Part shown: one piece after another, positions 9,424 to 27,287 of the stretch
How the letters are laid out: each line of letters begins with the position of its first letter
Position numbering within the stretch: the stretch's first letter is position 1
Source of the DNA: a virus
Direction: 5' to 3' (one strand)
DNA length: 27,287 nucleotides
IMG/VR virus record: IMGVR_UViG_3300008266_001178
Span: 1 to 27,287 of that record
Translations under genes and position numbers: made by a program
Notes under the pieces: generated by a model
The model's input: the letters and a program-made list of their open reading frames with translations, nothing else
What the model was told of the DNA's origin: nothing
The model's database searches: none

Positions 9424-9443
9424 GTTTCGGTTTGGTTTTTTTG

Positions 9444-9475
9444 AATCCTCGGCCTTTGGTCGGGGATTTTTTTTT
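9444..9475 (+). terminator. Strong intrinsic terminator after the 8845 gene
   Basis: An inverted repeat pairs 9444-9454 (AATCCTCGGCC) with 9458-9468 (GGTCGGGGATT) around a TTT loop: 11 pairs, two of them G-T. A run of nine T follows at 9467-9475. It isolates the virion gene from the glycan cassette. The final T of the run is also the first base of the next promoter box. Confidence 0.85.
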
Positions 9476-9482
9476 ACCTTTG
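9455..9482 (+). promoter_or_regulatory. Promoter of the glycan cassette
   Basis: TTTG at 9455-9458 lies 16 bases before TACCTTTG at 9475-9482, fitting the Bacteroidota TTTG/TAnnTTTG promoter with short spacing. The upstream element sits in the loop of the preceding terminator hairpin. The ATG of the first transferase gene begins at 9488, only five bases after the -7 box, so the transcript would have almost no leader. Confidence 0.7.
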
Positions 9483-9487
9483 CACAG

Positions 9488-12217: not shown

Positions 12218-12229
12218 ACAAAGCGAAAA

Positions 12230-13090: not shown

Positions 13091-13092
13091 CA

Positions 13093-13677
13093 ATGTATCA
13101 CTCACAGGTAGGGCAGGACGAGTTCGTTGACAATTTTCTTGGCGGAAAGCGCAATGGCCGCTATTTGGATATAGGAAGCCACAATGGGGTTGACCTTTCA
13201 AATAGCTATTTCTTTGAGGTTCAAAGAGGTTGGACGGGCGTTTTGATTGAGCCTATGGAGGAGGAATACGCTAAATTGGTGGCCAATCGCAGCGACAAGA
13301 ATGACTTTTTTAATGTGGCGGTTTCCAATTACTTTGGCACGGCTCAATTCACGAAGATATTGGGGGGATATCACGGCCTGAATATGATTTCGGGTCTAAA
13401 GCAAAGCTTACACGAAAAGCATCTTGACAGGATTCACAGGGAAGCCAATGAGTCAAATGCCCAAGTCGTAGATGTCACCGTGTCTGTTAGAACGGTCCAG
13501 GACATATTGGACGAATGCGAACTCTATCAATTTGACTTTTGCTCCCTTGACACGGAGGGTTCAGAGTACGAGGTCGGCTATGAATCAAGGGAGAAGATTG
13601 AGTCTTTCTTGAGTAGGAAGGGCTATCGCTTCCACAGAAGCATTGGGCATGACGATGTTTACACCTTGATTCATTAA
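13093..13677 (+). CDS. FkbM-family SAM-dependent methyltransferase
   Basis: The 194-residue protein begins SQVGQDEFVDNFL and has the SAM-binding motif YLDIGSHNG at residues 24-32, the strand GVLIEPMEEEY ending in the acid expected to bind SAM ribose, and CSLDTEGSEYEV near residue 150, all typical of FkbM-type O-methyltransferases. It is last in the sugar cassette, two bases after the GT10 gene, so it probably methylates a hydroxyl of the glycan and may cap the chain. It is shorter than many family members but contains the whole core. No membrane segment. The gap after it (13678-13781) carries the next promoter. Confidence 0.88.
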   Translation: MYHSQVGQDEFVDNFLGGKRNGRYLDIGSHNGVDLSNSYFFEVQRGWTGVLIEPMEEEYAKLVANRSDKNDFFNVAVSNYFGTAQFTKILGGYHGLNMISGLKQSLHEKHLDRIHREANESNAQVVDVTVSVRTVQDILDECELYQFDFCSLDTEGSEYEVGYESREKIESFLSRKGYRFHRSIGHDDVYTLIH

Positions 13678-15635: not shown

Positions 15636-16445
15636 ATGACTTTAGAAGAGATTGCAGCCTCCAAGCAGGAAGGCTTGGACACGATTGGAGAAGAGTTTGG
15701 AAAGAAGGTGGACAAGTCGCAGGATGAACTGCTCGCTTTGCTCCTTTTAATGCTCTCCAGGCTCTCCTACGACACCGAAGGCAATCTCCTATCCACCACC
15801 GACAATTACGCTCGTGTAGAGGCTCTGATGGCCGAATTTAAGGATGCCGTATCGCGGAGCAGTTATTACGATGCGTTGGTATTCTTGGCAAAGAAGATTG
15901 ACACGCAGGCCGACTTGACCAAGCAGTATTACGATAAGTTGGGCTTTGATGTGAACTCGGCTTCGGAGGTCGGTTACGAGGAGCAGATGCGGTCTATGTT
16001 TGACGATTTGACCAACCTTGAGACGAACCTATACGCTTATATCCGAAACTTTATCCTTGCGTCCATTGCTTCGGGTTCGGCCCGGTCGCTTTTGGAGGGA
16101 GGGATTACCGAGATAATGGTGGGCGGTGGCCCTGACAAAAAGGGTCGTTTGTTCAATATGGCGGTCTTGACTGCTGACACGATGTTTGCGGTGATTGACC
16201 GTTCCTTCACCTACGCTTTGGGCAAGGCTTTGGGCATTAAGAAGTTCAAGTATGCCGGGGGATTGGTGAACGATTCAAGGCCATTCTGCGTGTCAAGGGA
16301 TGGCAAGGTTTTTGATGAGGGGATGATTCGTTCGTGGGGAAGGTTGGGCGATTGGAAGGGTAAGATTCCCGGCACGGACGAAGCCACCATTTTCATTTAT
16401 TTGGGAGGCTATCGTTGTAGGCATTGGCTTGTTCCGCAAGTTTGA
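15636..16445 (+). CDS. Minor head protein, MuF / SPP1 gp7-like
   Basis: The 269-residue protein has a helical N-terminal region and a C-terminal domain typical of the phage Mu F-like head morphogenesis family: KFKYAGGLVNDSRPFCVSR (ending near residue 218), GKVFDEGMIRSW, and GGYRCRHWLVP at 257-267, ending with the conserved Cys-Arg-His. Members bind the portal and are carried in the capsid in few copies; in some phages they are ejected. It starts nine bases after the portal stop. The stop region TTTGA at 16441 forms the upstream element of the next promoter. No toxin or ADP-ribosylating extension follows the core domain. Confidence 0.88.
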   Translation: MTLEEIAASKQEGLDTIGEEFGKKVDKSQDELLALLLLMLSRLSYDTEGNLLSTTDNYARVEALMAEFKDAVSRSSYYDALVFLAKKIDTQADLTKQYYDKLGFDVNSASEVGYEEQMRSMFDDLTNLETNLYAYIRNFILASIASGSARSLLEGGITEIMVGGGPDKKGRLFNMAVLTADTMFAVIDRSFTYALGKALGIKKFKYAGGLVNDSRPFCVSRDGKVFDEGMIRSWGRLGDWKGKIPGTDEATIFIYLGGYRCRHWLVPQV

Positions 16446-16468
16446 ATGCCCATTTTTGTTTATATTTG
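16441..16468 (+). promoter_or_regulatory. Promoter before the 16503 gene and head genes
   Basis: TTTG at 16441-16444 lies 16 bases upstream of TATATTTG at 16461-16468, the same spacing as the promoter at 9455. The predicted transcript would start near 16475 and have a leader of about 28 bases free of hairpins and rich in A and T. The first element overlaps the stop codon of the MuF-like gene. Confidence 0.7.
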
Positions 16469-16502
16469 CACCACAAACCCTTAACCATAAATCCTTAAAT
16501 CT

Positions 16503-16862
16503 ATGAATGAAAGAATCACAGGCAGAGTTGTTCCCGTGCTGAGAGCCGATGGCGAGCAAATCAAAGTCACCATTGATGTGGCAAGAAACACCGAGTTCTT
16601 GAAGAAGTACGGTATGCGCATTCTTGATGACAGCGCATTGACCACCACTCCAAGTTCGGTTCACCACGACATCGTTGAGCAGATGCCCAAACGCAGGCCG
16701 ATGCTTCGCCAGGAAGAACCCCAAGTCGTAGCCCCATTGACCACCTCCGAGATGATGGAGCAAACCCCAGAAGTCCCAGACGAGGAAGCGTTTGAAGAAG
16801 AGCCTCTGCCCCAAGAAGTACCAACCGAAGAAGCACCAACCACTAAAACCCGTAGAAAATGA
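16503..16862 (+). CDS. Small acidic-tailed head-module protein, unknown function
   Basis: The 119-residue protein is not recognised. Residues 1-42 form a compact, mixed region (RITGRVVPVLRADGEQIKV). Residues 43-110 are rich in proline, glutamate and threonine and probably disordered, ending in a basic TKTRRK tail. It stands first in the transcript from the promoter at 16441 and overlaps the scaffold gene by four bases (ATGA). Position between the minor head protein and the scaffold suggests a head assembly accessory or decoration protein, which is a guess. The ATG at 16503 is preceded by TTAAATCT and is the only sensible start. Confidence 0.7.
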   Translation: MNERITGRVVPVLRADGEQIKVTIDVARNTEFLKKYGMRILDDSALTTTPSSVHHDIVEQMPKRRPMLRQEEPQVVAPLTTSEMMEQTPEVPDEEAFEEEPLPQEVPTEEAPTTKTRRK

Positions 16863-17674
16863 GCGTAGATTCCAAAGAGATGGCTAAATGGCTGTTTGAC
16901 CAAGAGAAAGAGTTTGCATCCCTTGACGAGTTCAAGGAAGAACTTGCGAAGAAGTATGTGTCCCGTGAGGTTGCCGTTGACGATGAGGACATCCGCAATC
17001 GCGTTACCGGGAAGACCCTCGGCAGCCTTGAGACCAAGTTCAAGAGGTCTTTCAACTTGACCGAGGACGATGTGAAGGGCAAGAAACTCTCCGACCTGTT
17101 TGAGGTTGCGCAGCAGCGTATGACCGCCCAAATGGAGGAGTTGAAGGAGCAGGCCAAGAACACCGGGAAGGACGATGAGGCTTACAAGGCCCAGCTTGCT
17201 GAGTTGAAGAGGCAGAAGGGTGAGTACGAAACCTTGGCCGGTGAGTTGACGCAGAAGTTGGAGCAGAAGGAGGTTGAGTCGCAGAAGGCCATTGACAACT
17301 ACATCGTTAACCAAGAAGTGATGAAGATTAAGTCATCCCTTGCGTGGAGCGATTCGGTCAATCAGTTCGCAAGGAAGGGCTTTGACTTAGAATTGAACGA
17401 GCGTTATATCTTTGCGTTATCGGATGGGAAGTTGGTGGTGACGGATAAGAACGGAAGCCAAATCAAGAACGAGAAAGGCACGGGCTATTTGACACCTGAA
17501 GAGTTGGTTCGCACCGAGGCTGACAAGGCTCAAATGCTCAAAAAGGCAGGAGAAGCCGGGAAGCAAGGCAAAGAGCCGATTCGGACTTCAACCTCCGACA
17601 AAGAAGGCACTCGTGGAGAGCGGTTCTTGCACCCAAGGGCCGTGAAGCATAGAGAAGAATTAAACGCACGATGA
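16859..17674 (+). CDS. Capsid scaffolding protein (putative)
   Basis: The 271-residue protein is highly charged and helical. A long coiled coil runs from about residue 85 to 150 (glutamine- and glutamate-rich heptads), followed by a small globular domain (~150-215) and a basic, disordered C-terminus ending HPRAVKHREELNAR, a kind of tail that scaffold proteins use to bind the capsid lattice. It lies directly before the major capsid gene, the normal position of a scaffold, which guides shell assembly and leaves the prohead. No serine protease motif was seen, so the maturation protease is not fused here. The stop overlaps a small ATG ORF (ATGA at 17671). Confidence 0.85.
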   Translation: MSVDSKEMAKWLFDQEKEFASLDEFKEELAKKYVSREVAVDDEDIRNRVTGKTLGSLETKFKRSFNLTEDDVKGKKLSDLFEVAQQRMTAQMEELKEQAKNTGKDDEAYKAQLAELKRQKGEYETLAGELTQKLEQKEVESQKAIDNYIVNQEVMKIKSSLAWSDSVNQFARKGFDLELNERYIFALSDGKLVVTDKNGSQIKNEKGTGYLTPEELVRTEADKAQMLKKAGEAGKQGKEPIRTSTSDKEGTRGERFLHPRAVKHREELNAR

Positions 17675-17724
17675 TGTGTCGGGGGGACAATAAGCCCCAT
17701 AGTGCCTGGCTTGGCAAGAAATAG
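17671..17724 (+). CDS. Seventeen-codon coupled mini-ORF before the capsid gene (doubtful)
   Basis: ATG at 17671 overlaps the scaffold stop as ATGA, exactly as most real genes in this operon do. It is followed by a second ATG and runs 17 codons (MMCRGDNKPHSAWLGKK) to TAG 17722-17724. The peptide has a cysteine, an RGD tripeptide and a basic end. It lies in the region that also folds into the leader structure described at 17677-17730, so translation of the ORF would open that RNA. It could be a genuine tiny gene, a regulatory leader peptide, or chance. Confidence 0.35.
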   Translation: MMCRGDNKPHSAWLGKK

Positions 17725-17730
17725 CCGACA
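17677..17730 (+). promoter_or_regulatory. Predicted three-way-junction RNA in the capsid gene leader
   Basis: TGTCGG (17677-17682) pairs perfectly with CCGACA (17725-17730). Inside are two hairpins: GGGG (17683-17686) with CCCC (17695-17698) around an eight-base loop, and TGCC (17703-17706) with GGCA (17713-17716) around a six-base loop. Together they form a three-way junction 23 bases before the capsid ATG. A T-run (17735-17741) follows, so it could also act as a partial terminator. No known riboswitch class was recognised. Energies were not computed. Confidence 0.4.
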
Positions 17731-17753
17731 AATCCTTTTTTCATTCCAAAAAA

Positions 17754-18815
17754 ATGTCATACGCTTTTTCATCCTTCGTATCGTGTCCGAACATTCAGGA
17801 GCGGTTGGACGCAGGCTACTTCAATGCCGATCCAACGATGTTCCCCGGCCACATCAATACCCTTCGTGCGGTCACAAGCCCTATGAACGAATCGGGTATT
17901 CTTCAGAACCAAATTGACACCAAGAACGGTCATTACCGCCAGGTGGAAGTTGTGTATCAGCCCCGAATGACTGATTCCAACACCTCTACCTCTGCGGCCT
18001 TGAACTGTGCTGCGGGGCCAGAGTTTGGTGAAACCTCACGGGTTTACAACATTGACCCAAACACCGGTGCTTCTCGCAGGTGGTCTATCGGCTTGGACGA
18101 TTTGGCCCCTCGTTGTGAAAATGACGAGACCTACATCGCCCGGCAGTTGGCTATGCATATGCAAGCCATTAAGCGGTACATCAACCAAGAGGCGGTTACG
18201 TTCATTGCCACCAACAATGGCTTGTTCTCTTCCGACCCAGGTTCTACCGTTAACGTGGCTCGCACCTTGTTGACCACCAAGACCAAAAACACCTCCACAG
18301 GCGTTTTCTTGGATGACTTCTTGTCCGATGTGGTTTACCAATACCAACTCGCTGAGGCTTGGGATCGCCCCATCATCCTCGGTGGTGAACTCGTGCAGAA
18401 GTATATGACTGCGTTGAAGTCTCATTGCTGCGCAACGGTCAATGTTGACCTACAGCAAATGATGAACTCGGACGCTCAGTCCTACTTCTTCTTTGAGCCT
18501 CGCCTTGGTACTGCCCAAGGCAATCCCAACGGATTCTCGTTCCTCGCTCCAGGCGGTGTGCAGATGATTCGTTACAATGCCTTCCGTGGTGCTACCGGCA
18601 TCCGTGTCATTGACGATGAGTCCATCAAAAAGGGTACGATTTCTGACCCTGAAACCGGGCTTGAGTTTGACTACTATGCTCAGTTGGATTGTAACCAATG
18701 GAAGTTCTTTATGGGACTCTCCTACAAGTTCGTTACATTGCCTTCTGATGTGTTCTTCTTGAACGACCAGCTTCGCGGTGTCAACTACGTCTTTGAAGGC
18801 GTGGTGAGCAACTAA
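17754..18815 (+). CDS. Major capsid protein
   Basis: The 353-residue protein builds the icosahedral shell. Size, position after scaffold and before connector genes, and composition fit an HK97-fold capsid protein: an N-terminal arm (residues 1-60), a spine helix region (ENDETYIARQLAMHMQAIKR near 124-143), a peripheral domain with VYQYQLAEAWDRPIILGG, and a strand-rich end (EFDYYAQLDCNQWKFFMGLS). The start follows a run of seven A, the usual ribosome entry signal here, and the gene has an 79-base structured leader. A strong terminator follows the gene. The fold was inferred from sequence; individual HK97 landmarks were not proven. Confidence 0.88.
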   Translation: MSYAFSSFVSCPNIQERLDAGYFNADPTMFPGHINTLRAVTSPMNESGILQNQIDTKNGHYRQVEVVYQPRMTDSNTSTSAALNCAAGPEFGETSRVYNIDPNTGASRRWSIGLDDLAPRCENDETYIARQLAMHMQAIKRYINQEAVTFIATNNGLFSSDPGSTVNVARTLLTTKTKNTSTGVFLDDFLSDVVYQYQLAEAWDRPIILGGELVQKYMTALKSHCCATVNVDLQQMMNSDAQSYFFFEPRLGTAQGNPNGFSFLAPGGVQMIRYNAFRGATGIRVIDDESIKKGTISDPETGLEFDYYAQLDCNQWKFFMGLSYKFVTLPSDVFFLNDQLRGVNYVFEGVVSN

Positions 18816-18840
18816 TCTCTGATTGGGTTTAGTTTGGGAA

Positions 18841-18870
18841 GGGGGTGCGAAAGCATCCCCTTTTCTTTTT
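18841..18870 (+). terminator. Strong intrinsic terminator after the capsid gene
   Basis: GGGGGTGC (18841-18848) pairs with GCATCCCC (18853-18860), eight pairs with one G-T, closed by a GAAA tetraloop, followed by TTTTCTTTTT. It closes the head operon. The next promoter begins directly after it. Confidence 0.9.
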
Positions 18871-18874
18871 GTAC

Positions 18875-18902
18875 CTTGTGCCATTGATTTTTAGTAACTT
18901 TG
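18875..18902 (+). promoter_or_regulatory. Promoter of the neck operon
   Basis: CTTG at 18875-18878 lies 16 bases before TAACTTTG at 18895-18902; TTTG at 18868-18871 with 23 bases is an alternative upstream element. The ATG of the next gene is at 18907, only four bases after the box, so the transcript is predicted to be leaderless. Confidence 0.7.
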
Positions 18903-18906
18903 CCTT

Positions 18907-19911
18907 ATGAGTTGTTGGAATAATGTCATCGGCATACGCGGTCTTTGCGACCCAGGTACGGAGCCTATCAGCGGCCTCTACATCAATGATTTGACCGGCA
19001 TTAGCCTTGCCGACCTTGATTCGGGGGTTAATGAGGAGGACAAGACCGCCTACACCTTGATTCAGCGCAAGATTGACCAAGCGGCCAATATGCTGAAGGC
19101 CGAGTCTTTGGCCTACTTGCAGAGCCGTTGGAATTACACCACATCGGCTTTCAATGGCGATTTGGGCTTCTATTCGGAGTCCGTTCAGCCTCTCCCTGCC
19201 GCAGCGGTTTGGAGGGGCATTGGGATGCGTTATCGGCAGGTGGATTACATCTCCGTGACCATCTCTTCCATCAGCCTTCTGCTTCCTGCTACGGGCGTTG
19301 TCCCGGTTCGTGTGGTTGACTTGAGGACGGGTGCGACCTTGGACACTTTCAGCGTGAATGCGGTGGCTAATTCGGTGGCTCGTTTGGTGGTGAACAAGAC
19401 CTACCAATCCAACGGTCAGATGTTGAATTTGGCCGTGCTTTACAATGCCACATCGGTGGCCTCCTTCCAAACGGGTCTTTATCCGACCTATGGATGCGGT
19501 GGATGCGGTCGGGGCTATGGATGGACTGAGAATATGCTTGAGAGGGCCATTGAGATACCAACGAGTGCGCCTTTGTTGGATAGCAATATCAGCGGTGGGG
19601 CGTTCACGGGCGGTCTGAGTGTTCAGTACAATGTCGCTTGCAGTTTTGAGTCTTTGCTCTGCGCTCACATTTCACAACTCGGCTATCCATTGCTTTACAA
19701 GACCGGGATGCTATTGTTGAAGGAGATGGAGTTCTCCAAGAGGCTGAATGGGGTGATTGTGTTCAACCGGGATATGAATCAAGAGTTGGGCAATTACTAT
19801 CAGGCTCAATACGACCAATATATGCAACGCTACTTTGAGCAAGCGTCCTTGCCGGAGAATGGTTGCTTTTCTTGTAGGCAACGGGTTCGGCAAGCCTCCT
19901 TCATACCGTGA
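18907..19911 (+). CDS. Neck or connector-region virion protein, unknown family
   Basis: The 334-residue protein is not recognised. Residues ~45-75 are helical, residues ~80-190 are strand-rich, and a glycine-cysteine segment CGGCGRGYG sits near residues 196-204. The C-terminal part is helical, ends with CFSC near residue 320, and is rich in glutamine and tyrosine. The two CxxC pairs could bind zinc together. It is first in a separate transcript after the capsid terminator and overlaps the next gene (GTGA). Position after the capsid gene fits a head-tail connector or another head protein; this is inferred. ATG 18907 lies four bases after the promoter box. Confidence 0.75.
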   Translation: MSCWNNVIGIRGLCDPGTEPISGLYINDLTGISLADLDSGVNEEDKTAYTLIQRKIDQAANMLKAESLAYLQSRWNYTTSAFNGDLGFYSESVQPLPAAAVWRGIGMRYRQVDYISVTISSISLLLPATGVVPVRVVDLRTGATLDTFSVNAVANSVARLVVNKTYQSNGQMLNLAVLYNATSVASFQTGLYPTYGCGGCGRGYGWTENMLERAIEIPTSAPLLDSNISGGAFTGGLSVQYNVACSFESLLCAHISQLGYPLLYKTGMLLLKEMEFSKRLNGVIVFNRDMNQELGNYYQAQYDQYMQRYFEQASLPENGCFSCRQRVRQASFIP

Positions 19912-20357
19912 CACTTGATGAATATATCACGAAGATTCAAGGGCAGAGTTCTTCTCTGAAGAGCAATTTGGTCGCTGCCTTGGACGAGTCTGCGCCTGCA
20001 ACCCATAGCGACCAGGTACTGCCCCGCATCTTTGAGAAAGGCTTGAAACCCGATTTGGGCAAGATTGGCAATTACGCAAGCGACAAGTACAAGGAAAAGA
20101 GGCGCAAGAAGGGTTTGCAGGTTGCGTTCATTGATATGAAATTCAGCGGTGATTTGAAGAGCGAGTTCAGCAAGCCCACTCGTAGAGTTACCGGGAAGAC
20201 CACATCCATCTCCTTCAATGTCTTGACTGCTGAAAATAAGGAGAAAGTCGTTGAGAACGAGGCTCGTAGGGGGACTATCTTTGGGTTGTCTGCCCCCGAA
20301 AAGCAGTATTTCGTTGATTTATTGACCCGAACCTTTTTCGCTAAAGTATTCAAATGA
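19908..20357 (+). CDS. Neck / head-tail joining protein (putative)
   Basis: The 149-residue protein starts with GTG (GTGA overlap with the previous stop) and overlaps the next gene as ATGA. It is basic, with a helical N-terminus, a strand region (LQVAFIDMKFSGDLKSEF) and a C-terminal GLSAPEKQYFVDLLTRTF segment, which recalls HK97 gp10-like or other head-tail joining proteins that end with a short helix after an FG-like turn. The size and order (connector, joining, completion) match siphovirus neck modules. No further domain evidence can be read from the sequence. Confidence 0.7.
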   Translation: MTLDEYITKIQGQSSSLKSNLVAALDESAPATHSDQVLPRIFEKGLKPDLGKIGNYASDKYKEKRRKKGLQVAFIDMKFSGDLKSEFSKPTRRVTGKTTSISFNVLTAENKEKVVENEARRGTIFGLSAPEKQYFVDLLTRTFFAKVFK

Positions 20358-20974
20358 TAGTAACCCAAGTCATTGACGAGATATTCGCCCGGCTGAACGC
20401 CTACAAACTCGTTCGGCATACGGGCTTTGCGGAGTTGTTGCCCGACCGGGACGGCAAGATCATCCCTGCGGTTTACTGCTCCAACGGAAACTACAAGCAC
20501 GTTGTGGACGATTACGATTGGAACGAGGGCATTGCCTTCATTCGCTACAATGGCCGGGAGCGAGCCGAGGTCACGGAGGAGAACAACTTTATCGGATGCC
20601 AAGACCTGCTGAGAATCATTTATCCCTTGCGCCTTGTGATTATCGGTCGCAGGAAGGGTAAGAGACCCTACGAGGTGAGTTCGCTCGTCCAGAGCAAGAT
20701 TACGGGCCTCTACGAGGCTTTGGCGCAGACTGTCGGTGCGGTGAGTGTTGATGTGTTGGGTGTGAGTTCCGGGTATTCCATTAAGGAGAACCTGGAGAGC
20801 GAGTTTGAGGGGGCGAAGATTGCTTGGGACACGAACCTCTATATCATTACGCTTGACTTGGAGGTTGAGGTTGTGGGTGATGCGTCTTGTTTGAACACCG
20901 AGGAGCCTTGCGTCCCTACGCCTACGCCTTCGGCCCGAATCTTTGACCCGACTTTTGACCAAACCTTTAATTAG
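20354..20974 (+). CDS. Tail completion / terminator-like protein (putative)
   Basis: The 206-residue protein starts with ATG overlapping the previous stop as ATGA. It has an N-terminal helix (VTQVIDEIFARLNAY), strands and a second helix near residues 110-128, and a strand ending in TLDLEVEVVGD, an alpha/beta layout seen in small tail terminator or completion proteins. The C-terminus is a proline-threonine-rich tail. The length is greater than typical terminators (about 130-150 residues). It is last in the neck operon, and the following gap holds a promoter. The assignment is by position and secondary-structure impression. Confidence 0.65.
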   Translation: MIVTQVIDEIFARLNAYKLVRHTGFAELLPDRDGKIIPAVYCSNGNYKHVVDDYDWNEGIAFIRYNGRERAEVTEENNFIGCQDLLRIIYPLRLVIIGRRKGKRPYEVSSLVQSKITGLYEALAQTVGAVSVDVLGVSSGYSIKENLESEFEGAKIAWDTNLYIITLDLEVEVVGDASCLNTEEPCVPTPTPSARIFDPTFDQTFN

Positions 20975-20987
20975 GTCGCTCAAACTT

Positions 20988-20995
20988 TATCTTTG
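20988..20995 (+). promoter_or_regulatory. Promoter-like -7 box before the fibre module
   Basis: TATCTTTG lies 19 bases before the ATG at 21015. The expected -33 position holds TTTAA rather than TTTG. The predicted leader is short and A-rich (TTAAAATCAAACGAAT), the usual ribosome entry form here. Confidence 0.55.
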
Positions 20996-21014
20996 AACTT
21001 AAAATCAAACGAAT

Positions 21015-21569
21015 ATGGCTGTTAAGACACGGATAAATTTGGATGCGTCCTCGGTTGTGGTGAGGGACGAGACGGGTGCTTTGCAGAATACCGCTACAAG
21101 GGTCGGCACTTTGTTTGAAGACTTCTCGGATTCCGTTGCATTGCTTCGGGAGAGGGGATGCGTGAGCCTTTCTACGAGCGCAAGCGCACCATTCACTCCT
21201 GCGGCAGGCAATACGCCTGAGAAACTGACTTATGCGATGGCGAGCGTTGTGAGTACGCCTTACAATGTGAGTTCGGAAACAAGCCCCAAAGTTCAATGGA
21301 CGGGCTTGGCGGGGTTGCCTTACCGGGTGAGTGCTTCGTTGAACTTCACCGGTTCAAATGGCCGTGAGTATTACTTCTACATCGCGAAGAATGGCGTGAT
21401 AGATGTCTCTACGAGGGCATCGGTTCACCTTCACTCTTCCGACCCTCACTCGGTTTGTTTGGAGTTGTTTGCTTCGGGTGCTGCTTACTACGAGATATGG
21501 ATTGAGCAGGAAACAAATATGACCCAAATCACCCTTTTGAACGGCCAACTTTCTTTAATGAGCGTCTAA
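21015..21569 (+). CDS. Beta-rich virion protein of the fibre module
   Basis: The 184-residue protein begins with a short helical/loop stretch (residues 1-50) and continues as a strand-rich domain (YRVSASLNFTGSNGREYYF, residues ~96-114, and later ELFASGAAYYEIWIEQE), resembling jelly-roll modules of phage upper baseplate or collar proteins. It has its own promoter-like box and overlaps the next gene by one base (TAATG). Together with the fibre genes behind it, it probably forms part of the host-recognition apparatus. It is a second candidate for an abundant tail protein; a fibre role is preferred from context. Confidence 0.65.
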   Translation: MAVKTRINLDASSVVVRDETGALQNTATRVGTLFEDFSDSVALLRERGCVSLSTSASAPFTPAAGNTPEKLTYAMASVVSTPYNVSSETSPKVQWTGLAGLPYRVSASLNFTGSNGREYYFYIAKNGVIDVSTRASVHLHSSDPHSVCLELFASGAAYYEIWIEQETNMTQITLLNGQLSLMSV

Positions 21570-22090
21570 TGGCACTTGGCAGACTTTCCTCCTTCACCTT
21601 CGGGACTCGTTTCCTGACCCTTGTTTATGTCAACTCGCAGACCTTCTATGTGCCGTATGCCCACATTATTGCATACGAGTCCGACCCTACTTCCGGGGAC
21701 TTGACGATTGTCCTTTACACGCAGGGCCAGGTCAGCGAAACCTTGTCCGTGAAGAACACGGATTTGGTTGCTTTGGGCAGTAGTGCTGCTGCGTTCCTTG
21801 CTTCGTTGCAGGGCGTGATGACGAACCAACTCTTTTGGTTTGAGATATGGGCGAACTTTTTGGCCCGTGCTAAAGCGAATGGAGCGTTTGCTCCTGAGTT
21901 GGAGAGTTCTTGTGGTCGGGGCTTCCGTTATCGGATGTCTGGCCCACCGCTTGTCCCGACTGCTGACGAGGACTACGCTGACTTTTGGTACTTCAACCTT
22001 CGTTGCGATACTGACTTAGCGACTGCTAAGGAGGTCAGCGCATACAACTGCCTTCTTGCGAGATTTTCACCTTTGAACCCGAACACCTGA
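21569..22090 (+). CDS. Fibre-module protein sharing a domain with the 24691 gene
   Basis: The 173-residue protein is not recognised, but residues 1-85 align along their whole length with the 87-residue product at 24691. Both start MAL and share a pattern of LTL-Y, Q-F, a tyrosine before an isoleucine-alanine, ETLSV/ESMSV, TD and a final AFLASL/GFIATL. The C-terminal 85 residues, with FWFEIWANFLARA and cysteines near 111 and 150, have no counterpart. The domain pair brackets the two fibre genes. It may be a fibre chaperone or a small tail attachment domain; neither is shown. It overlaps both neighbours by one base. Confidence 0.65.
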   Translation: MALGRLSSFTFGTRFLTLVYVNSQTFYVPYAHIIAYESDPTSGDLTIVLYTQGQVSETLSVKNTDLVALGSSAAAFLASLQGVMTNQLFWFEIWANFLARAKANGAFAPELESSCGRGFRYRMSGPPLVPTADEDYADFWYFNLRCDTDLATAKEVSAYNCLLARFSPLNPNT

Positions 22091-22368
22091 TGTCCAATCC
22101 ATCTCTTCTTTGCGTTCCCTATCGCTTTAAGACAAGCAAGTTATACTCTCAAATCCCCGATTCGGGTTTGGGTGATTTTGTCGTTACTCGTTCTGCGAGC
22201 AACTCTGCTACGAGGGTCAATGCTGCGGGTCTTATTGAGACCGTTGCAGACAATGTGCCTCGTTTGGATTATCCTTTGGGAGGCATTACGGCAGGGTGTC
22301 CTGCGTTGCTCGTTGAGCCGAGTGCGCAGAACACCTGCTTGCAAAGTCAAACTTTCCAAAATTGGGCG
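22090..22368 (+). repeat. Fibre N-terminal repeat block (partner 23356-23637)
   Basis: The first about 93 codons of the two fibre genes encode clearly related sequence, sharing SLL-PY, LYSQIP-SG-GDF, GLIETV-DNVPRLDYPLGG and CPALLVEPSA-N. It is a diverged direct repeat of about 280 bases at a distance of about 1.27 kb, with higher G+C than the middle of each gene. It could support recombination between the two genes. Confidence 0.8.
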
Positions 22369-23352
22369 TTTACAAACGCAAGTGCAAGTTCGGGCAACGC
22401 AGCCATATCGCCAAGCAACACTCAAACCGCTGGGCTTTTTATACCTAACTCTGGCACAACAGGCCGAGGCGAAGTGGCTTGTGGAACTCTAAGCAATGCA
22501 ACCACTTATTCGTTTAGTTGCTTCATTAAGACCCCAACAAACTCACTCACATCCGTTTGGCTTTACATTTCGGACGGAGGCACTGGAACGGGGGCTAATC
22601 GTTGGGGCGTTGAAATCAATTTGTCTAATTTTACCTTAACGGATTACATTGTCGGAAACGGCTCTGTAACTTCCAAGGCGGTTGAGAATTACGGCAACGG
22701 ATGGTATCGGATTCGTGTTACGGGTCAAGTAACAAGTGCAATAAGTGGTTCATCCGTTGCGGTCGTTCGTAAGGTAAACGCTGGAGCAGACACCAATGGA
22801 ATCAACGGGGTTCTCGTATGGGGCGCACAACTTGAAGCAAGCTCCATAGCCACCTCTTACATCCCCACAACCACCGCCCCCATAACCCGTGGAGCAGAGG
22901 CCGTAAGCAAGACGGGCGTGAGCAGTTTGATTGGGCAGACGGAGGGGACGATTTATCTTGAGGTTGAACAAGACCCTTTAAATCGGGACATTTTTTCGCT
23001 TAACACAGGGACAGGAAATTCAATAATTTTTTACAAAAACAGTTCTAACATCGTTAATGCTCGTCTTTACGCAAATAGTTCAACGATTTTTACTATAGCC
23101 AATGCCGTTGCAACTAACGGGTTTGTAAAAATTGCACTTGCCTATAAAGCGGGAGATTCAGCGATGGTTATTAATGCAGGTACAGCGCAAACATCTGCAA
23201 GTAGTTTCATATTTTCTTCAGCATTAAGTTTGGTTAGCCTTACACCGAGTTGGTTTACGAATGCAGGATTCACAAAAATCCGTGCCGTGGCCCTCTACCC
23301 CACCCGCCTGCCCAATACCGGCCCTCTCTCCCTCCAATCTCTCACGCAATAA
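22090..23352 (+). CDS. Tail fibre / adhesin 1
   Basis: The 420-residue protein shows a phage adhesin layout. Residues 1-93 form a conserved anchor (VPRLDYPLGG, CPALLVEPSAQN). The next region has the common phage carbohydrate-binding pattern VENYGNGWYRIRVTG (about 198-212) and WGAQLEASSIATSYIPTTTA (244-263). After LIGQTEGTIYLEV comes a lectin-like, laminin-G-type sandwich (~285-400), and a short conserved end (TRLPNTGPLSL). The next gene is a paralogue with the same order. The central segments are much more A/T-rich than the ends. It probably binds a host surface glycan. It starts one base inside the previous stop (TGATG). Confidence 0.85.
   Translation: MSNPSLLCVPYRFKTSKLYSQIPDSGLGDFVVTRSASNSATRVNAAGLIETVADNVPRLDYPLGGITAGCPALLVEPSAQNTCLQSQTFQNWAFTNASASSGNAAISPSNTQTAGLFIPNSGTTGRGEVACGTLSNATTYSFSCFIKTPTNSLTSVWLYISDGGTGTGANRWGVEINLSNFTLTDYIVGNGSVTSKAVENYGNGWYRIRVTGQVTSAISGSSVAVVRKVNAGADTNGINGVLVWGAQLEASSIATSYIPTTTAPITRGAEAVSKTGVSSLIGQTEGTIYLEVEQDPLNRDIFSLNTGTGNSIIFYKNSSNIVNARLYANSSTIFTIANAVATNGFVKIALAYKAGDSAMVINAGTAQTSASSFIFSSALSLVSLTPSWFTNAGFTKIRAVALYPTRLPNTGPLSLQSLTQ
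22681..22968 (+). repeat. Fibre central repeat block (partner 23977-24249)
   Basis: Both fibre genes carry VENYGNGWYRI, WGAQ-E-SS--TSYIPTTTA, TR and LIGQTEGT-YLE in the same order with similar DNA. Between this block and the N-terminal block, and again after it, the two genes differ strongly. This alternation of conserved and variable parts marks them as mosaic. Confidence 0.75.
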
Positions 23353-23355
23353 CCT

Positions 23356-24660
23356 ATGTCCACTCCTTCTCTCTTAAACATCCCTTACCTCTACAAGGCA
23401 GGGACGCTTTATTCGCAGATACCCGAAAGCGGAGCGGGTGATTTCACCGTACAACGCACCACGACCGTTGCGAATCGCTCCACGAGGATTAACAAGGACG
23501 GGTTGATTGAGACCGTGTTGGACAATGTGCCTCGCCTTGACTATCCGTTGGGTGGTGCGGTGAATGGCTGCCCTGCGTTGCTTGTGGAGCCGAGTGCGAG
23601 AAATGATTGCTTCCAAAGTCAAGGATTTAGCACCTCCCCTTGGATTGCAGCGGGTGTGTCAGCCGTAAGCACCGCCTTAACCAATAGCCCCGATGGTACG
23701 CAAAATGCTTTTGATGTAACGATAAGCAATACGGGTTTCAGTAATTTACGGCAAACCATTGCTTGCGCCAACAACACCACATACACGATTTCTTGTTTTT
23801 ACAAAAACAAGGCTTTGACTGCGGGGCAGACATTTGAGATGCGTTACACAAATGAAAACATTGCGCCCAACAACTTAAACGCCATAGCCACCATTGACCT
23901 TGCGGCAGGGACTGCAAGTTACAATTTGACAGGAACTGCGGGGACGGGTTTTTCGGGAACTGCAACGGGTCGTGTTGAAAACTACGGCAATGGATGGTAT
24001 AGGATTTCAATGACCTTTACCACGGGTTCTGCGGGGGCTAATGCAAGTGGTATTTTTAGGCCCGTAGTTGGCATAAGTATTGCAAGGAATTTTTTTGCGT
24101 GGGGAGCTCAAATGGAAACAAGTTCCGTCCCCACCTCCTACATCCCCACCACCACCGCGGCAGTCACGCGGAGTGGGGATTTAATCTCAGATACAACTGC
24201 GACTGCGTTGATAGGGCAGACCGAGGGGACGGTTTATTTGGAGATGCAGGCAGATGCGGCAGGGACGGGGCAGAACTTTTTATATGTTGGCAATAATGCG
24301 TCCGATTCCATTGTGATTGGAAAGTCAGGCGTAAATTGTTTCTTTGAATTTAGAGTAAACGGAACACCTTTAATAAGTCAAAATGTCGCTCTTAGCGGAA
24401 CGGTCATAAAAGGGGCAATAGCCTATGCAAACGGCAATTATGCAGCCTATGCGAACGGCAATCTTTTGGCTTCGGGGACAACTTCAAGAACTCCCGCAAA
24501 CGCTTTGACTGCAATCGCTTTTTCAAATTTCATTAACTTACCAACAATAAACGCTGCCTCTGCAATTATGCGAGTCCGTGCCTTTGAACTCCACCCCAAC
24601 CGCATCCCCAACACGGCAGCACCCGGAGTTCTCTCCCTCGCCACTCTCACCGCACCATAA
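23356..24660 (+). CDS. Tail fibre / adhesin 2, paralogue of adhesin 1
   Basis: The 434-residue protein has the same order as the preceding gene: anchor (residues 1-93), VENYGNGWYRISM near 208-220, WGAQMETSSVPTSYIPTTTA from 249, LIGQTEGTVYLEMQ, a lectin-like sandwich, and the end HPNRIPNTAAPGVLSL. Between these blocks the two proteins differ. The central DNA again falls in G+C. Having two intact fibres with different binding parts may widen host range or allow a hetero-oligomeric fibre. The start is ATG 23356, three bases after the previous stop. No enzymatic motif was noticed, and no reverse transcriptase or template repeat that would suggest programmed diversification is present. Confidence 0.85.
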   Translation: MSTPSLLNIPYLYKAGTLYSQIPESGAGDFTVQRTTTVANRSTRINKDGLIETVLDNVPRLDYPLGGAVNGCPALLVEPSARNDCFQSQGFSTSPWIAAGVSAVSTALTNSPDGTQNAFDVTISNTGFSNLRQTIACANNTTYTISCFYKNKALTAGQTFEMRYTNENIAPNNLNAIATIDLAAGTASYNLTGTAGTGFSGTATGRVENYGNGWYRISMTFTTGSAGANASGIFRPVVGISIARNFFAWGAQMETSSVPTSYIPTTTAAVTRSGDLISDTTATALIGQTEGTVYLEMQADAAGTGQNFLYVGNNASDSIVIGKSGVNCFFEFRVNGTPLISQNVALSGTVIKGAIAYANGNYAAYANGNLLASGTTSRTPANALTAIAFSNFINLPTINAASAIMRVRAFELHPNRIPNTAAPGVLSLATLTAP

Positions 24661-24675
24661 ACCACCATCTCTCAC

Positions 24676-24683
24676 TAAATTTG
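24676..24683 (+). promoter_or_regulatory. Promoter-like -7 box before the 24691 gene
   Basis: TAAATTTG fits TAnnTTTG and lies seven bases before the ATG at 24691, so transcripts from it would be leaderless or nearly so. No TTTG stands at the expected upstream distance. Confidence 0.45.
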
Positions 24684-24690
24684 TCGCACT

Positions 24691-24954
24691 ATGGCACTAC
24701 CATCCTTAACCACCGCATCATTCCTTGGGACGCAGCTCACGCTGACCTACTCGGACGGAAGGCAGTATTTCCTCAATTACAGGGATATCAACGCTACCCA
24801 ACTTGATAGCACCTTTGGTGTGTCAAGGGTCAGAATCTACCTATCTGGTAGCCTTGACGAGTCTATGTCCGTCACAAGCACGGATGTCGCATCGCTCCCT
24901 GCACCAAACAACACCCTCGCAGGATTCATCGCAACCCTTAACTCGTACCTATAA
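24691..24954 (+). CDS. Small fibre-module protein, partner of the 21569 product
   Basis: The 87-residue protein corresponds to the N-terminal half of the 173-residue product at 21569, with matching start (MAL), LTLTYSDGRQYFLNY against LTLVYVNSQTFYVPY, ESMSVTSTDV against ETLSVKNTDL, and similar C-terminal helix. It lies directly behind the fibre genes as the longer relative lies directly before them. It overlaps the holin-like gene by one base (TAATG). The fold is probably a small beta-sandwich with a terminal helix. Function unknown; a fibre-associated role is inferred from position. Confidence 0.7.
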   Translation: MALPSLTTASFLGTQLTLTYSDGRQYFLNYRDINATQLDSTFGVSRVRIYLSGSLDESMSVTSTDVASLPAPNNTLAGFIATLNSYL

Positions 24955-25253
24955 TGTCACTCAAGCAGATGATGATGGAACTCGGCATTAATGTCGGGAT
25001 GTCCGTAGGCGGTTTCTTCGGAAGCCTCCTCCTCGTTGGAAAGCAAAAGGGCGCGTCCATTCGCACCCAAATGTTCTCCATCCTCGCAGGAACATTGTCT
25101 GCCAACTACATCACCCCCCTTGCCGTGAACTTCCTTGGCGTTGAACTTGAATCAGCCAAGTTTGCAATGGCCTTCATCGTAGGATTCAGCGGTCTAAGGC
25201 TCGTGGAAACACTCAGCGAACGCCTCCATAAGAAGGTGGACGATGAATCTTGA
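24954..25253 (+). CDS. Holin-like small membrane protein
   Basis: The 99-residue protein has two or three hydrophobic segments (about residues 10-28, 42-62 and 68-84) and a charged C-terminus (SERLHKKVDDES). Size, membrane pattern and position immediately before the endolysin gene fit a holin, which opens the inner membrane for the endolysin at a set time. The end overlaps the endolysin start by 11 bases. The start is ATG 24954 (TAATG overlap). The family is not recognised, so this is a context-based call. Confidence 0.7.
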   Translation: MSLKQMMMELGINVGMSVGGFFGSLLLVGKQKGASIRTQMFSILAGTLSANYITPLAVNFLGVELESAKFAMAFIVGFSGLRLVETLSERLHKKVDDES

Positions 25254-25842
25254 TGGCCTCTACCCATCCATCCCCCGGCACGTCTTAGACCAACTCAGCG
25301 ATGTGCAGGATAGGTACAGCATAAACACCCCCCTTCGCCTCGCTCATTTCCTTGCCCAATGCGCCCACGAATCGGGCCGATTCCTTGTAACGCGGGAGAA
25401 CCTAAACTACTCCGCTCAAGGGCTTCTAAAGACCTTCAAGAGGCATTTCAACGAACGAACGGCTAAACTGTACGCTCGCAACCCCGAAGCCATAGCCAAC
25501 AAGGTCTATGGCGGTCGCTTGGGCAATGCGGAAATCACCGATGGATGGAAGTTTAGGGGCCGTGGTTACATCCAAACCACCGGGAAGGCCAACTATGCCG
25601 AACTTGATAAAATCGTCCCCGAAGACCTCCTTGACAACCCCGACTTGGTGTCTTCCAGGTACGCGATGCTCTCTGCCGGGTTCTATTGGAATAGCAGGAA
25701 AATCAACGCGGTGGCCGACCTCGGAGCAACCGAAGAGGTCGTAGAAAAGGTCACGCTCAAGGTGAATGGAGGGACGCACGGACTGAAGGAGCGCACCGAA
25801 TACTTCTTTGAATACTACCAAATCCTGACGGTCATCGCATAA
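25243..25842 (+). CDS. Endolysin, glycoside hydrolase family 19
   Basis: The 199-residue enzyme is expected to cut the glycan chain of host peptidoglycan (or chitin-like polymers). It shows the GH19 core: LAHFLAQCAHESGRF with E43 as catalytic acid, RENLNYSAQGLL with E52 as second acid, NKVYGGRLGN, and GWKFRGRGYIQTTGKANYAEL forming the substrate groove. There is no signal peptide, so it needs a holin to reach the wall. It is a single-domain form of typical phage size. It overlaps the holin-like gene by 11 bases. The promoter-like box at 25840 begins at its last codons. Confidence 0.93.
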   Translation: MNLDGLYPSIPRHVLDQLSDVQDRYSINTPLRLAHFLAQCAHESGRFLVTRENLNYSAQGLLKTFKRHFNERTAKLYARNPEAIANKVYGGRLGNAEITDGWKFRGRGYIQTTGKANYAELDKIVPEDLLDNPDLVSSRYAMLSAGFYWNSRKINAVADLGATEEVVEKVTLKVNGGTHGLKERTEYFFEYYQILTVIA

Positions 25843-25847
25843 CTTTG
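25840..25847 (+). promoter_or_regulatory. Promoter-like -7 box at the end of the endolysin gene
   Basis: TAACTTTG overlaps the endolysin stop codon and lies 20 bases before the ATG at 25868. No good upstream TTTG at normal distance is visible. It would drive the small basic protein, the ribbon-helix-helix gene and the spanin-like gene. Confidence 0.45.
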
Positions 25848-25867
25848 AACCTATAAACCACCACGCT

Positions 25868-26029
25868 ATGCCACTCACTAAAGCCAAAGGTTATGGGAAA
25901 AAAGCAGTCTCCAAAGCCGTCTCCAAAAACATCTCCGAACTCACCAAAGCCAACAAAGCAAAGCCAAAAAGCAAAAAGCGGTCAAGAAAGCAAATTGCCG
26001 CTATTGCCTATTCTGCTGCAAAGTCATAA
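25868..26029 (+). CDS. Small lysine-rich phage protein (53 aa)
   Basis: A short ORF from ATG 25868 to TAA 26027-26029 codes for 53 residues: MPLTKAKGYGKKAVSKAVSK, then a linker and RKQIAAIAYSAAKS. The protein has about 15 lysines and a final small-residue helix. It resembles the group of tiny basic phage proteins that begin MP and end in a QxxAIA helix, close in style to DUF6496; function there is unknown, with nucleic-acid binding suggested only by charge. It has its own promoter-like box at 25840 and follows the endolysin directly. Confidence 0.75.
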   Translation: MPLTKAKGYGKKAVSKAVSKNISELTKANKAKPKSKKRSRKQIAAIAYSAAKS

Positions 26030-26041
26030 CCACTCCTGCTG

Positions 26042-26272
26042 ATGAAGATAGCCCTATCCCTTAACATCCGCAAGGACTTCGTTGAAGCCTTGGATAAACT
26101 CGTGGCGCAGACCGGCAAGAGCCGGGAAGCACTCGTAGAGGATGCGCTCTTTGATATGTTTGAAATCTTCCAGGAGTTCACGGCCATAGACCTTGACCTG
26201 GACGAGCATTTGACCGAGGAAGCGAAGAACGAAACGATGCGGAGGATCTTCCCCGAAGACGATGCCTGCTGA
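26042..26272 (+). CDS. Ribbon-helix-helix DNA-binding protein
   Basis: The 76-residue protein begins with a short strand (KIALSLNI) followed by two helices (KDFVEALDKLVAQTGKS and REALVEDALFDMFEIF), the ribbon-helix-helix pattern of CopG/Arc regulators; the strand contacts DNA in dimers. The acidic C-terminal part (DLDLDEHLTEEAKNE) has no known role. It lies 12 bases after the small basic gene and overlaps the spanin-like gene by 11 bases. As a regulator among lysis genes it could control late or lysis transcription, or be the antitoxin-like half of a pair; no toxin gene is next to it. Fold confident, target unknown. Confidence 0.8.
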   Translation: MKIALSLNIRKDFVEALDKLVAQTGKSREALVEDALFDMFEIFQEFTAIDLDLDEHLTEEAKNETMRRIFPEDDAC

Positions 26273-26807
26273 TTCCCATTTCCCCACCAAAGGGACACTC
26301 GCCCTTATCCTTCCCATCGTTGTGGCCCTCGGCTACTTCATCTTCCTGCTCAAGGACAGACCGGCAATGGTCATCCAATCGCAGGAATGCACCATTCAAA
26401 GCCAACGGGAGGCAATGGATTCAATGCAATCCCGTATCGCCCACATAGAGCCTCTCAGGGACACGATAATCCAAGAAGTGGTGCGTACCAAGGTTAAATG
26501 GAAAGAAAGGCTTGTAGAGGCTTATACGAAGCCGGACACGATTCTCGTCCCATCCTACATCCCCATCCGTTTGGATTCTTGCCAAGAGGTCGGTGCGCTC
26601 CTTGAAGAGCAGGTGGCTTTGACCGATAGTTTGCTTGTTGCTTACCGGGTGAAGGACTCCATCTGCCGGGACGCTTTGAACACCCTTGATAGCGTTGTTG
26701 CCGGGCAGAAAGCGTTGGTGCAGAAGGAGCAGAAGAAGGTTCGTAGAAACCGGGTTGTTGCGGTTGCGGTTGGATCCGCAGTCTTAGGCGCAACGCTCTT
26801 AAAATAG
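26262..26807 (+). CDS. Membrane-anchored coiled-coil protein, spanin-like (Rz-like)
   Basis: The 181-residue protein has an N-terminal membrane segment (about residues 12-29), a long charged helical region (~40-160) predicted to coil, and a short hydrophobic end (VVAVAVGSAVLGATLLK). Position behind holin and endolysin and this layout fit an inner-membrane spanin, which joins inner and outer membrane in the last step of lysis of Gram-negative hosts. The C-terminal hydrophobic tail could be the outer-membrane part, giving a single-protein (unimolecular-like) design, but no lipobox was seen. The family is not recognised. Confidence 0.65.
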   Translation: MPADSHFPTKGTLALILPIVVALGYFIFLLKDRPAMVIQSQECTIQSQREAMDSMQSRIAHIEPLRDTIIQEVVRTKVKWKERLVEAYTKPDTILVPSYIPIRLDSCQEVGALLEEQVALTDSLLVAYRVKDSICRDALNTLDSVVAGQKALVQKEQKKVRRNRVVAVAVGSAVLGATLLK

Positions 26808-26810
26808 CCT

Positions 26811-26818
26811 TATCTTTG
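26811..26818 (+). promoter_or_regulatory. Promoter-like -7 box in the final intergenic gap
   Basis: TATCTTTG fits TAnnTTTG three bases after the spanin-like gene. No plus-strand gene follows before the terminator at 26859-26895, so it would make an RNA of about 70 bases or be without function. Confidence 0.3.
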
Positions 26819-26858
26819 GCTTGCCGTTAAGGGGTTAGCGGTTTGTGTTTCATTGGTT

Positions 26859-26895
26859 AAGCCCACGAGTAGGTCGCTCCGAAAGTGGGCTTTTT
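26859..26895 (+). terminator. Intrinsic terminator closing the late genes
   Basis: AAGCCCAC (26859-26866) pairs perfectly with GTGGGCTT (26885-26892), with five T at 26891-26895. The 18-base loop can form a small GAG/CTC stem. It ends the plus-strand late region two bases before the stop codon of the convergent gene. Read from the other strand there is no T-run. Confidence 0.8.
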
Positions 26896-26897
26896 CA

Positions 26898-27287
26898 TTA
26901 ATACATCCTCGTACAATGCGAGAACTCGGCCACAATCTCACGGACATCGTTGCCTTGTTCGTTGGTTCGCCTGCTCATCTTTAACTTCATCCAATAGCCT
27001 CCCAGAGGCTTTGGTGGCCTTCCCTTCTCAACGTGGAATCCTCCAAGCCCTCCATCCCATTCTTCCTTGTAGGTGGCCGTGCGAATCTGGTGGATGTCCC
27101 TCTGCGAAATGACCTTGGTAGTACGGTCGTACCGATGCACCCTGTTGATGTGGTGGTACAGTTCGTGGACGTGGCCCATCCAGGTGCAGTCGTATCCTTC
27201 CATCGCCATCATTAGTCTGGAGTCCTGAAGCACTCCCTTTGTGACCACCCCTCCCCCCCCGAAACCATGCGCGTAATGTGTTACGAA
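26898..27287 (-). CDS. Metallophosphoesterase, C-terminal part (5' partial)
   Basis: On the minus strand a frame is open from the right window edge to TAA at 26898-26900, giving 129 residues. The first residues read HGFGGGG, the late His-Gly metal-binding motif, and 20-30 residues later comes TWMGHVHE, the GHxH motif of calcineurin-like phosphoesterases. The end, with GRPPKPLGGYWMKL, is typical of phage and SbcD-like members that act on DNA or nucleotides. The GTG at 27248 lies after the HG motif and therefore is not the true start; the N-terminal metal-binding motifs lie outside the window. It is convergent with the late genes and probably begins an early/replication region. A run of eight G in the coding strand is a possible sequencing trouble spot. 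Confidence 0.75.
   Translation of the reverse strand, partial: FVTHYAHGFGGGGVVTKGVLQDSRLMMAMEGYDCTWMGHVHELYHHINRVHRYDRTTKVISQRDIHQIRTATYKEEWDGGLGGFHVEKGRPPKPLGGYWMKLKMSRRTNEQGNDVREIVAEFSHCTRMY

Follow-up and report, generated by a model that had tools for sequence, protein, structure and literature searches.

In the distal tail-fibre locus of T-even phages, recombination between conserved motifs reportedly swaps adhesin specificity, as described by Tetart in 1998. The locus analysed here consists of two tandem tail-fibre genes in the virus record IMGVR_UViG_3300008266_001178, taken over its whole length of 27,287 nucleotides (nt; positions 1–27,287, hereafter the window). As in the T-even fibres, conserved motifs flank exchangeable binding segments, and recombination at the motifs is proposed. 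Unlike in the T-even fibres, each gene contains two whole-domain cassettes, the genes are arranged in tandem, and the anchors are specific to their position. Comparison with relatives indicates that the two genes probably form a four-slot host-recognition array, whose cassettes are traded between phages, presumably by homology-driven recombination at domain-edge sequences.

Domain shuffling at conserved motifs is already known. Described cases of receptor-binding-protein shuffling involve recent domain exchange across phage lineages, and the present family likewise displays independent combination of domains and high recent identity in different contexts. It differs from those cases in its fixed four-slot array, constant junctions, slot-to-slot exchange, and nucleotide-conserved edges. 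In the reports on flexible phage modules and metaviromic islands, core genomes are up to 99% identical, host-recognition genes fall to ~40% nt identity, and variants shuffle between modules (PMC7468147, PMC3909814). The unit exchanged there is a gene or an island, whereas here it is a single domain inside one gene. The branched tailspikes of the Ackermannviridae (PMC11414711) also combine adjacent receptor-binding proteins, constant N-termini that define position, and variable binding parts, but they are enzymatic tailspikes with XD and TD domains, and the present proteins are short fibres with two predicted lectin-like domains. The fibre of Pseudomonas phage E217/Pa193 is described as containing carbohydrate-binding and lectin-like domains and binding O-antigen (PMC10329688). 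The Pa193 fibre is the top fold match of both of our models, and the best phage matches (8env and 9b45) have 16–19% identity; however, that fibre is encoded by one longer gene, and the whole-chain template modelling scores are low (0.30–0.36). No description of a four-slot array with nucleotide-conserved edges was found in the literature searched, which gave partial coverage.

The two open reading frames (ORFs) lie on the plus strand at 22090–23352 (copy 1, P0001) and 23356–24660 (copy 2, P0002), are separated by 3 nt, and encode proteins of 420 and 434 amino acids (aa). Both match the PHROG 5939 'tail protein' profile (E=1.9e-44 and E=3.2e-31), in part, over profile positions 372–761 and 374–717 of 801, respectively. 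Each gene appears to be sequentially composed of a constant N-terminal anchor (N), an inner cassette (M), a constant junction, an outer cassette (V), and a constant end block (E). In copy 1, the anchor (aa 1–81, 22090–22332) is of slot-1 type N3 and includes boundary island 1 (aa 69–81, 22294–22332). The inner cassette M1 (aa 82–242, 22333–22815), delimited by family comparison, model, and the related contig L008, is a predicted β-sandwich. It is followed by boundary island 2 (aa 243–262, 22816–22875, WGAQ...SYIPTTT), which spans the end of domain 1 and the linker and is marked by synonymous conservation and breakpoints. Island 3 (aa 278–291, 22921–22962, IGQTEGTIY), at the start of domain 2, is the weakest of the three and is marked by synonymous conservation. 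The outer cassette V1 (aa 292–393, 22963–23268) is a second predicted β-sandwich, and the end block occupies 23269–23352.

Copy 2 has the same layout. Its anchor (aa 1–83, 23356–23604) is of slot-2 type N2 and includes island 1 (aa 71–83, 23566–23604), and its inner cassette M2 (23605–24096) is delimited as in copy 1. Island 2 (24097–24156) is where the match to a V2-sharing contig, L132, begins; island 3 (24202–24243) is recognised as a direct repeat and by synonymous conservation. The outer cassette V2 lies at 24244–24570, and the match to L132 has 78.7% nt identity over 24097–24581. In the end block (24571–24660), the backbone match returns at 24572 (L086), 24575 (L010 and L084), or 24637 (L008).

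The family was sampled by two scans of viral contigs, which found 486 and 576 relatives; from either scan, the 80 best were taken as loci. A hidden Markov model gave 142 matches in 120 loci plus the window, leading to 104 distinct full-length genes. L001, L002, and L083, which are copies of the window or of contig L003, were left out, as were ORFs cut by contig ends and exact duplicates. The conserved blocks are the same throughout these 104 genes, and the segments M and V were compared over 5356 gene pairs, which are non-independent.

Across the family, identity in M and identity in V show almost no correlation (r=0.19). In 136 of the 5356 pairs, M reaches 70% or more while V stays at 45% or less, and in 52 the roles are reversed. 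The 104 genes fall into 29 M types and 57 V types, in 83 combinations. Each of the 15 M types found in several genes is combined with at least two V types; of the 19 V types found in several genes, 17 are combined with at least two M types. At cassette edges, nt identity falls from near 100% to 35–45%, for example between L010 and L014 or between L018 and L022. The window's own genes follow this pattern: copy 1 and L004 share 95% aa identity in M and 24% in V, and copy 2 and L017 share 82% in M and 23% in V. Outside the V2 region, L132 matches copy 2 over just 35 nt of island 1, and M2 is unmatched. The M of copy 2 has relatives at 50–60% aa identity in slot 1 of other phages. Taken at the level of sequence, these comparisons show that M and V are exchanged independently, that cassettes occur in both genes, and that anchors stay with their position. 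No cassette type is repeated within one phage among the 15 within-locus pairs (M 10–33%, V 19–33%), a sample too small to call avoidance.

Phages with nearly the same backbone are shown by such comparisons to differ in most or all of the four slots. Contig L008 matches the window at 96.6% over 20331–22332, stopping at the end of the copy 1 anchor; at 98.1% over 23290–23603, from within the copy 1 end block to the end of the copy 2 anchor; and at 98.3% over 24637–25176. Between these stretches, L008 retains only the junctions (86–87%), and all four cassettes are replaced. Contig L003 is identical to the window (100% over 16090–27287). The window's backbone is present in 26 loci, of which 13 distinct two-gene arrays were compared (78 pairs). 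Left out were loci with identical genes (L141, L142, L144, L012), a cut or split copy 2 (L138, L147, L148), one copy (L134, L137, L149), or cut arrays (L136, L139, L084). A pair was counted as close when the DNA upstream of the array (up to 1.5 kb) reached 90% identity or more along the entire flank, with partial-flank pairs uncounted, and 14 of the 78 pairs qualify. In these 14 pairs, 49 of 56 slots are replaced (at most 60% nt identity) and 7 are kept at 83–96%, and the anchors are 78–98% identical.

The anchor is of type N3 in copy 1 and N2 in copy 2 in 8 of 8 such two-gene arrays. The other multi-copy loci, L025, L043, and L105, have other anchors; L025 (3304–7291) and L105 (6001–9986) contain three tandem fibre copies, each with its own anchor type. 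Outer cassettes also occur in different slots. At the nt level, the V of L152 copy 2 has 96% identity to that of L143 copy 1 and 94% to that of L150 copy 1; likewise, the V of L016 copy 2 has 95% identity to that of L151 copy 1 and 93% to that of L152 copy 1. Exchange is thus evident from one genome to another, also across the two slots.

The two copies within the window are paralogues with 40% identity (BLASTP, E=5e-80). Their anchor, central, and end blocks are direct repeats with 72–88% identity and a spacing of 1272–1305 nt, and the stretches separating these blocks have ~22–49% nt identity. Of 90 fourfold sites in residues that the copies share, 41 agree in the third position, and the longest exact stretch common to both copies is 14 nt. 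The copies are evidently old relatives and not near-identical repeats. The original prediction had described two fibre genes that share anchor, central, and end blocks and differ in between, and direct repeats about 1.3 kb apart; both descriptions are accurate. Its proposal that cassettes are replaced is strongly supported by relatives with exchanged cores and constant ends, the opposite of the uniform divergence without cassette boundaries that it named as contrary evidence. It missed that the cassettes number two per gene and are exchanged independently. It had further suggested that the shared blocks could recombine within the genome to shuffle or delete binding parts and so change host range. 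This is not supported as stated for the genome's own two copies, which have at most 14 exact bases in common. Three of the 26 backbone loci (L134, L137, L149) have one copy with the downstream sequence present, but this does not demonstrate a deletion through the shared blocks. In L134 (7519–7533) and L137 (6306–6320), the upstream gene leads, across the same short spacer, to a copy-2-type anchor, an arrangement that suggests either a single common event or an ancestral state with one copy. The second fibre gene of L148 is present as two overlapping ORFs (7252–8271 and 8114–8455), perhaps by a frameshift or a sequencing error.

The cassettes differ from the constant blocks in base composition. 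The G+C content is 56.9% in the central block of both copies and 63.6 and 64.3% in the end blocks; the outer domain has 37.7% in copy 1 and 43.3% in copy 2, and the inner domain ~47%, versus ~50–51% upstream. The interval 22948–23259 of copy 1 (37.5%) is undercut by just 0.33% of same-size windows of the record, whose G+C minimum (312-nt windows) lies outside the fibres, near 12070, within a run of transferase genes. Across the family, third-position G+C (GC3) averages 0.56 for N, against 0.36 for M and 0.33 for V. GC3 is below that of N for V in 104 of 104 genes and for M in 103; at fourfold sites, the G+C content is below that of N for V in 96 of 104 genes and for M in 97. The G+C content correlates with that of flanking DNA at r=0.44 for V and r=0.81 for N (n=100). 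The predicted A/T-rich cores therefore describe the outer domain, especially that of copy 1, and fit less well for the inner domain, whose raw G+C content is just slightly low, although its third positions are A/T-rich family-wide. The separate composition of the cassettes, also predicted, extends to the whole family. This pattern fits a domain pool with its own composition; relaxed selection would fit it too.

Models of the two proteins were predicted with AlphaFold2. The copy 1 model has a low-confidence N-terminus, a β-sandwich at aa 79–252, a low-confidence linker at 253–278, and a second β-sandwich at 279–405, and the copy 2 model is laid out alike. Besides the phage fibres, the models (predicted local distance difference test, pLDDT, ~67) match laminin-G, neurexin, galectin, and CBM40 folds with E values of 1e-3 to 1e-6. 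The domains would be lectin-like, resembling sugar-binding domains, and may bind cell-surface sugars. In pairs that share M, the refined breakpoints place the end of identity at aa 245–264 in 27 of 35 (pairs non-independent), and in M-sharing pairs with different anchors identity begins at aa 80–94 in 24 of 26. The breakpoints, located at aa 80–85 and for the most part 245–264, fall near the predicted domain edges (79–252 and 279–405). Identity profiles have three segments, of ~100%, then 71–95%, then 26–42% nt identity, in the 18 of the 35 M-sharing pairs listed. The exchanged piece is thereby bordered by above-background identity, as in homologous mosaics of the De Paepe type.

Exchange would take place in co-infected cells by homology-driven recombination, and the crossovers would lie in the brief conserved stretches that border the domains. 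The anchors would fix the two fibres at different places of the tail, and a cassette swap would alter which hosts are bound. The probable agent is a mismatch-tolerant phage annealing protein of the Rad52 kind. Rad52-like phage recombinases carry out relaxed homologous recombination, as one study shows with lambdoid phages in E. coli (PMC3945230). The mosaics described there resemble the present ones in their partly identical borders and tolerance of divergence, but there the recombination was demonstrated and here it is a proposal. A Rad52_Rad22 protein (PF04098) scores above the Pfam cut-off in two of nine family records (44.5 kb and 37.6 kb). The window has no match, and, apart from the 36.9-kb record G006, the records lacking one are short or fragments, most of the nine being incomplete. 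Minimal pairing segments are given as 31–34 bp for RecA and 23–27 for Red-beta in the same study (PMC3945230). Exact runs of at least 23 nt occur in the junction (aa 243–292) in 32% of 4767 unlike gene pairs and inside M or V in 0%. At island 1 and the end block, they occur in 6 and 5% of unlike pairs, and the median exact homology is 11 and 10 nt, respectively. On these lengths, homology could plausibly drive exchange at the junction; for the remaining edges the case is weaker, unless the process tolerates mismatches.

Several observations weigh against this explanation, beginning with the low fractions at island 1 and the end block. Recombination is deduced from sequence comparison, and none has been observed directly; the gene pairs compared are, as noted, non-independent. 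RecT and ERF match none of the nine records, the window included, and the 36.9-kb record G006 has no match to Rad52_Rad22, RecT, ERF, RVT_1, Resolvase, or Phage_integrase. In PHROGs, the Rad52-like protein comes closest to a family of exonucleases (E=4.9e-5). Neither fibre matches a Pfam family above cut-off, leaving sugar binding to be argued from fold resemblance, and the models are of modest confidence (pLDDT 66.8 and 66.5). Finally, the single fibre genes of the phage isolates P12024S and P12024L (L154 and L420) are ~98% identical through anchor and inner domain and display no cassette exchange. These two fibres differ in the number of C-terminal repeats, another way of fibre variation.

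The boundary islands are conserved at synonymous sites. Among the 3856 pairs of unlike type in all three of N, M, and V, the match at third positions is 0.49 versus 0.36 expected, with peaks at aa 71–79, 245–261, 282–289, and 396–412. Equal weighting of anchor-type combinations lowered the synonymous excess relative to the unweighted analysis; it is then 0.173 in 37 boundary columns, chosen after the conservation profile had been seen, versus 0.050 in 52 other conserved columns (Mann–Whitney p=3.7e-4). By place, the equal-weight excess is 0.27 in island 2, 0.17 in island 1, 0.14 in the end block, and 0.07 in island 3. Codon or RNA constraints unrelated to recombination might account for this conservation, an explanation that we regard as a real possibility though not a probable one. 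The excess is moderate and resides mainly in island 2, the boundaries were picked post hoc, and a residue within domain 1, Tyr206, has its codon fixed to the same degree (TAT in 93 of 98). Codon choice is specific to position, however, with ACC at Thr255 (81 of 104) versus ACG at Thr287 (76 of 96) and CCT at Pro71 (96 of 100) versus CCC at Pro259 (93 of 103), a pattern that speaks against simple codon bias. At the junction, no consensus RNA fold is found (alifold energy 0.0 over 49 sequences), and the single-sequence folding z averages just -1.03.

A universal phage DNA motif at island 2 was considered and dropped. The exact 17-mer occurs in at least 120 viral stretches, and 79 of the 81 listed occurrences read TSYIPT in an ORF longer than 150 aa; a G+C-matched synonymous spelling of TSYIPT is equally common (also at least 120 stretches, 81 of 81 in TSYIPT ORFs), and an A/T-rich spelling occurs in 19. 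The frequency of the G+C-matched spelling, which also counts in favour of a codon or RNA constraint, limits the claim of synonymous conservation to the 104-gene family. Within the family, we consider it a speculative and rather unlikely idea that the islands act as a nucleotide 'socket', in which selection for exchangeability fixes the edge codons while other synonymous sites saturate, making a self-maintaining common standard. If that were true, an A/T-rich pool of binding domains would circulate among many phage lineages through shared edges, and sequence conservation would be kept for the sake of recombination.

Exchange might instead be largely illegitimate, with crossovers appearing at domain edges since only such chimaeras fold and survive. 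The agreement of breakpoints with predicted domain edges and the usually short exact matches available in island 1 and in the end block (medians above) are what this mechanism would leave. On the other hand, the refined crossovers lie within conserved stretches and not at one functional point, the junction often has at least 23 nt of exact homology, and its synonymous sites are more conserved than protein selection predicts, so that we find largely illegitimate exchange unlikely.

A dedicated diversity system, namely mutagenesis by a diversity-generating retroelement, an invertible segment, or a site-specific recombinase, is very unlikely. Such a system, whose enzyme could be borne by the host, would also restrict variation to binding domains flanked by conserved sequence. 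Yet RVT_1, Resolvase (PF00239), and Phage_integrase (PF00589) match none of the nine records, fragments included and most incomplete, and control genomes are positive. The cassettes differ throughout and not at scattered adenines, and the crossovers spread over tens of codons. Inverted repeats reported in 18000–27287 amount to 8 pairs of 20–29 nt with 71–80% identity.

Almost the whole family is known from metagenome contigs, and the breakpoints coincide with shared k-mer-like islands, as they would if assembly had joined chimeras at the shared junctions. Identical full-length genes nevertheless come from different metagenome data sets in 11 groups of loci, and shared cassettes are often 93–97%, not 100%, identical. 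Moreover, the cyanophages S-CAM4 (L419, 1575–4191), ACG-2014j US23 (L417, 1710–4284), and S-WAM2 (L418, 2908–5566), with genomes of ~190 kb deposited as isolates, contain two adjacent fibre genes of the family, annotated as hypothetical. These fibres have two position-specific anchor types, starting with MPLFT and MPVFT. S-CAM4 and US23 are 96% identical from the end of the first gene through the anchor of the second to aa 81, and their cassettes differ. The same layout in isolates, together with identical genes across data sets, argues against assembly chimeras, which we consider highly improbable. Least credible of all are rate differences alone, with constrained anchor, junction, and end and domains diverging fast in place: the family-wide conservation profile would by itself yield conserved ends and variable cores, but this simple divergence is rejected as the M and V identities contradict each other in the 136 and 52 discordant pairs, one cassette at 97–100% nt identity stands beside another near 35–45%, and V cassettes 93–96% identical are found in different slots.

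Related-seeming small genes flank the fibre array on both sides, on the plus strand. A 173-aa gene (21569–22090), directly upstream, belongs to the conserved backbone, runs into the beginning of copy 1, and has a relative in 25 viral contigs. An 87-aa gene (24691–24954), directly downstream, resembles by eye the N-terminal half of the 173-aa gene. In relatives, the gene after the array is matched by the upstream 173-aa protein; the window's own 87-aa gene missed that E-value limit. The transferase run mentioned above, of sugar- and methyl-transferase-like genes at 9281–13677, lies between structural genes. It contains family 2 glycosyltransferases at 10180–11097 and 11651–12217, a family-10 (fucosyltransferase) match at 12230–13090, and an FkbM methyltransferase at 13093–13677. 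A 614-aa protein (13782–15623) has no match in the phage collection. An alignment scan of genome contigs for the host gave no confirmed relatives. The closest cultured relatives of the fibre anchor and first domain are Nonlabens phages, at ~31% identity, too distant for naming a host.

If the four-slot reading is right, host recognition in these phages would be a two-by-two combinatorial code, in which two tail positions each carry two exchangeable domains drawn from a shared pool. This would help to explain near-identical phage genomes with entirely different binding parts, and the units of swapping and the places of cutting would be readable from sequence. The conserved junctions make testable the old idea that short shared boundaries persist by enabling exchange, and the same layout in cyanophages deposited as isolates offers a laboratory handle.

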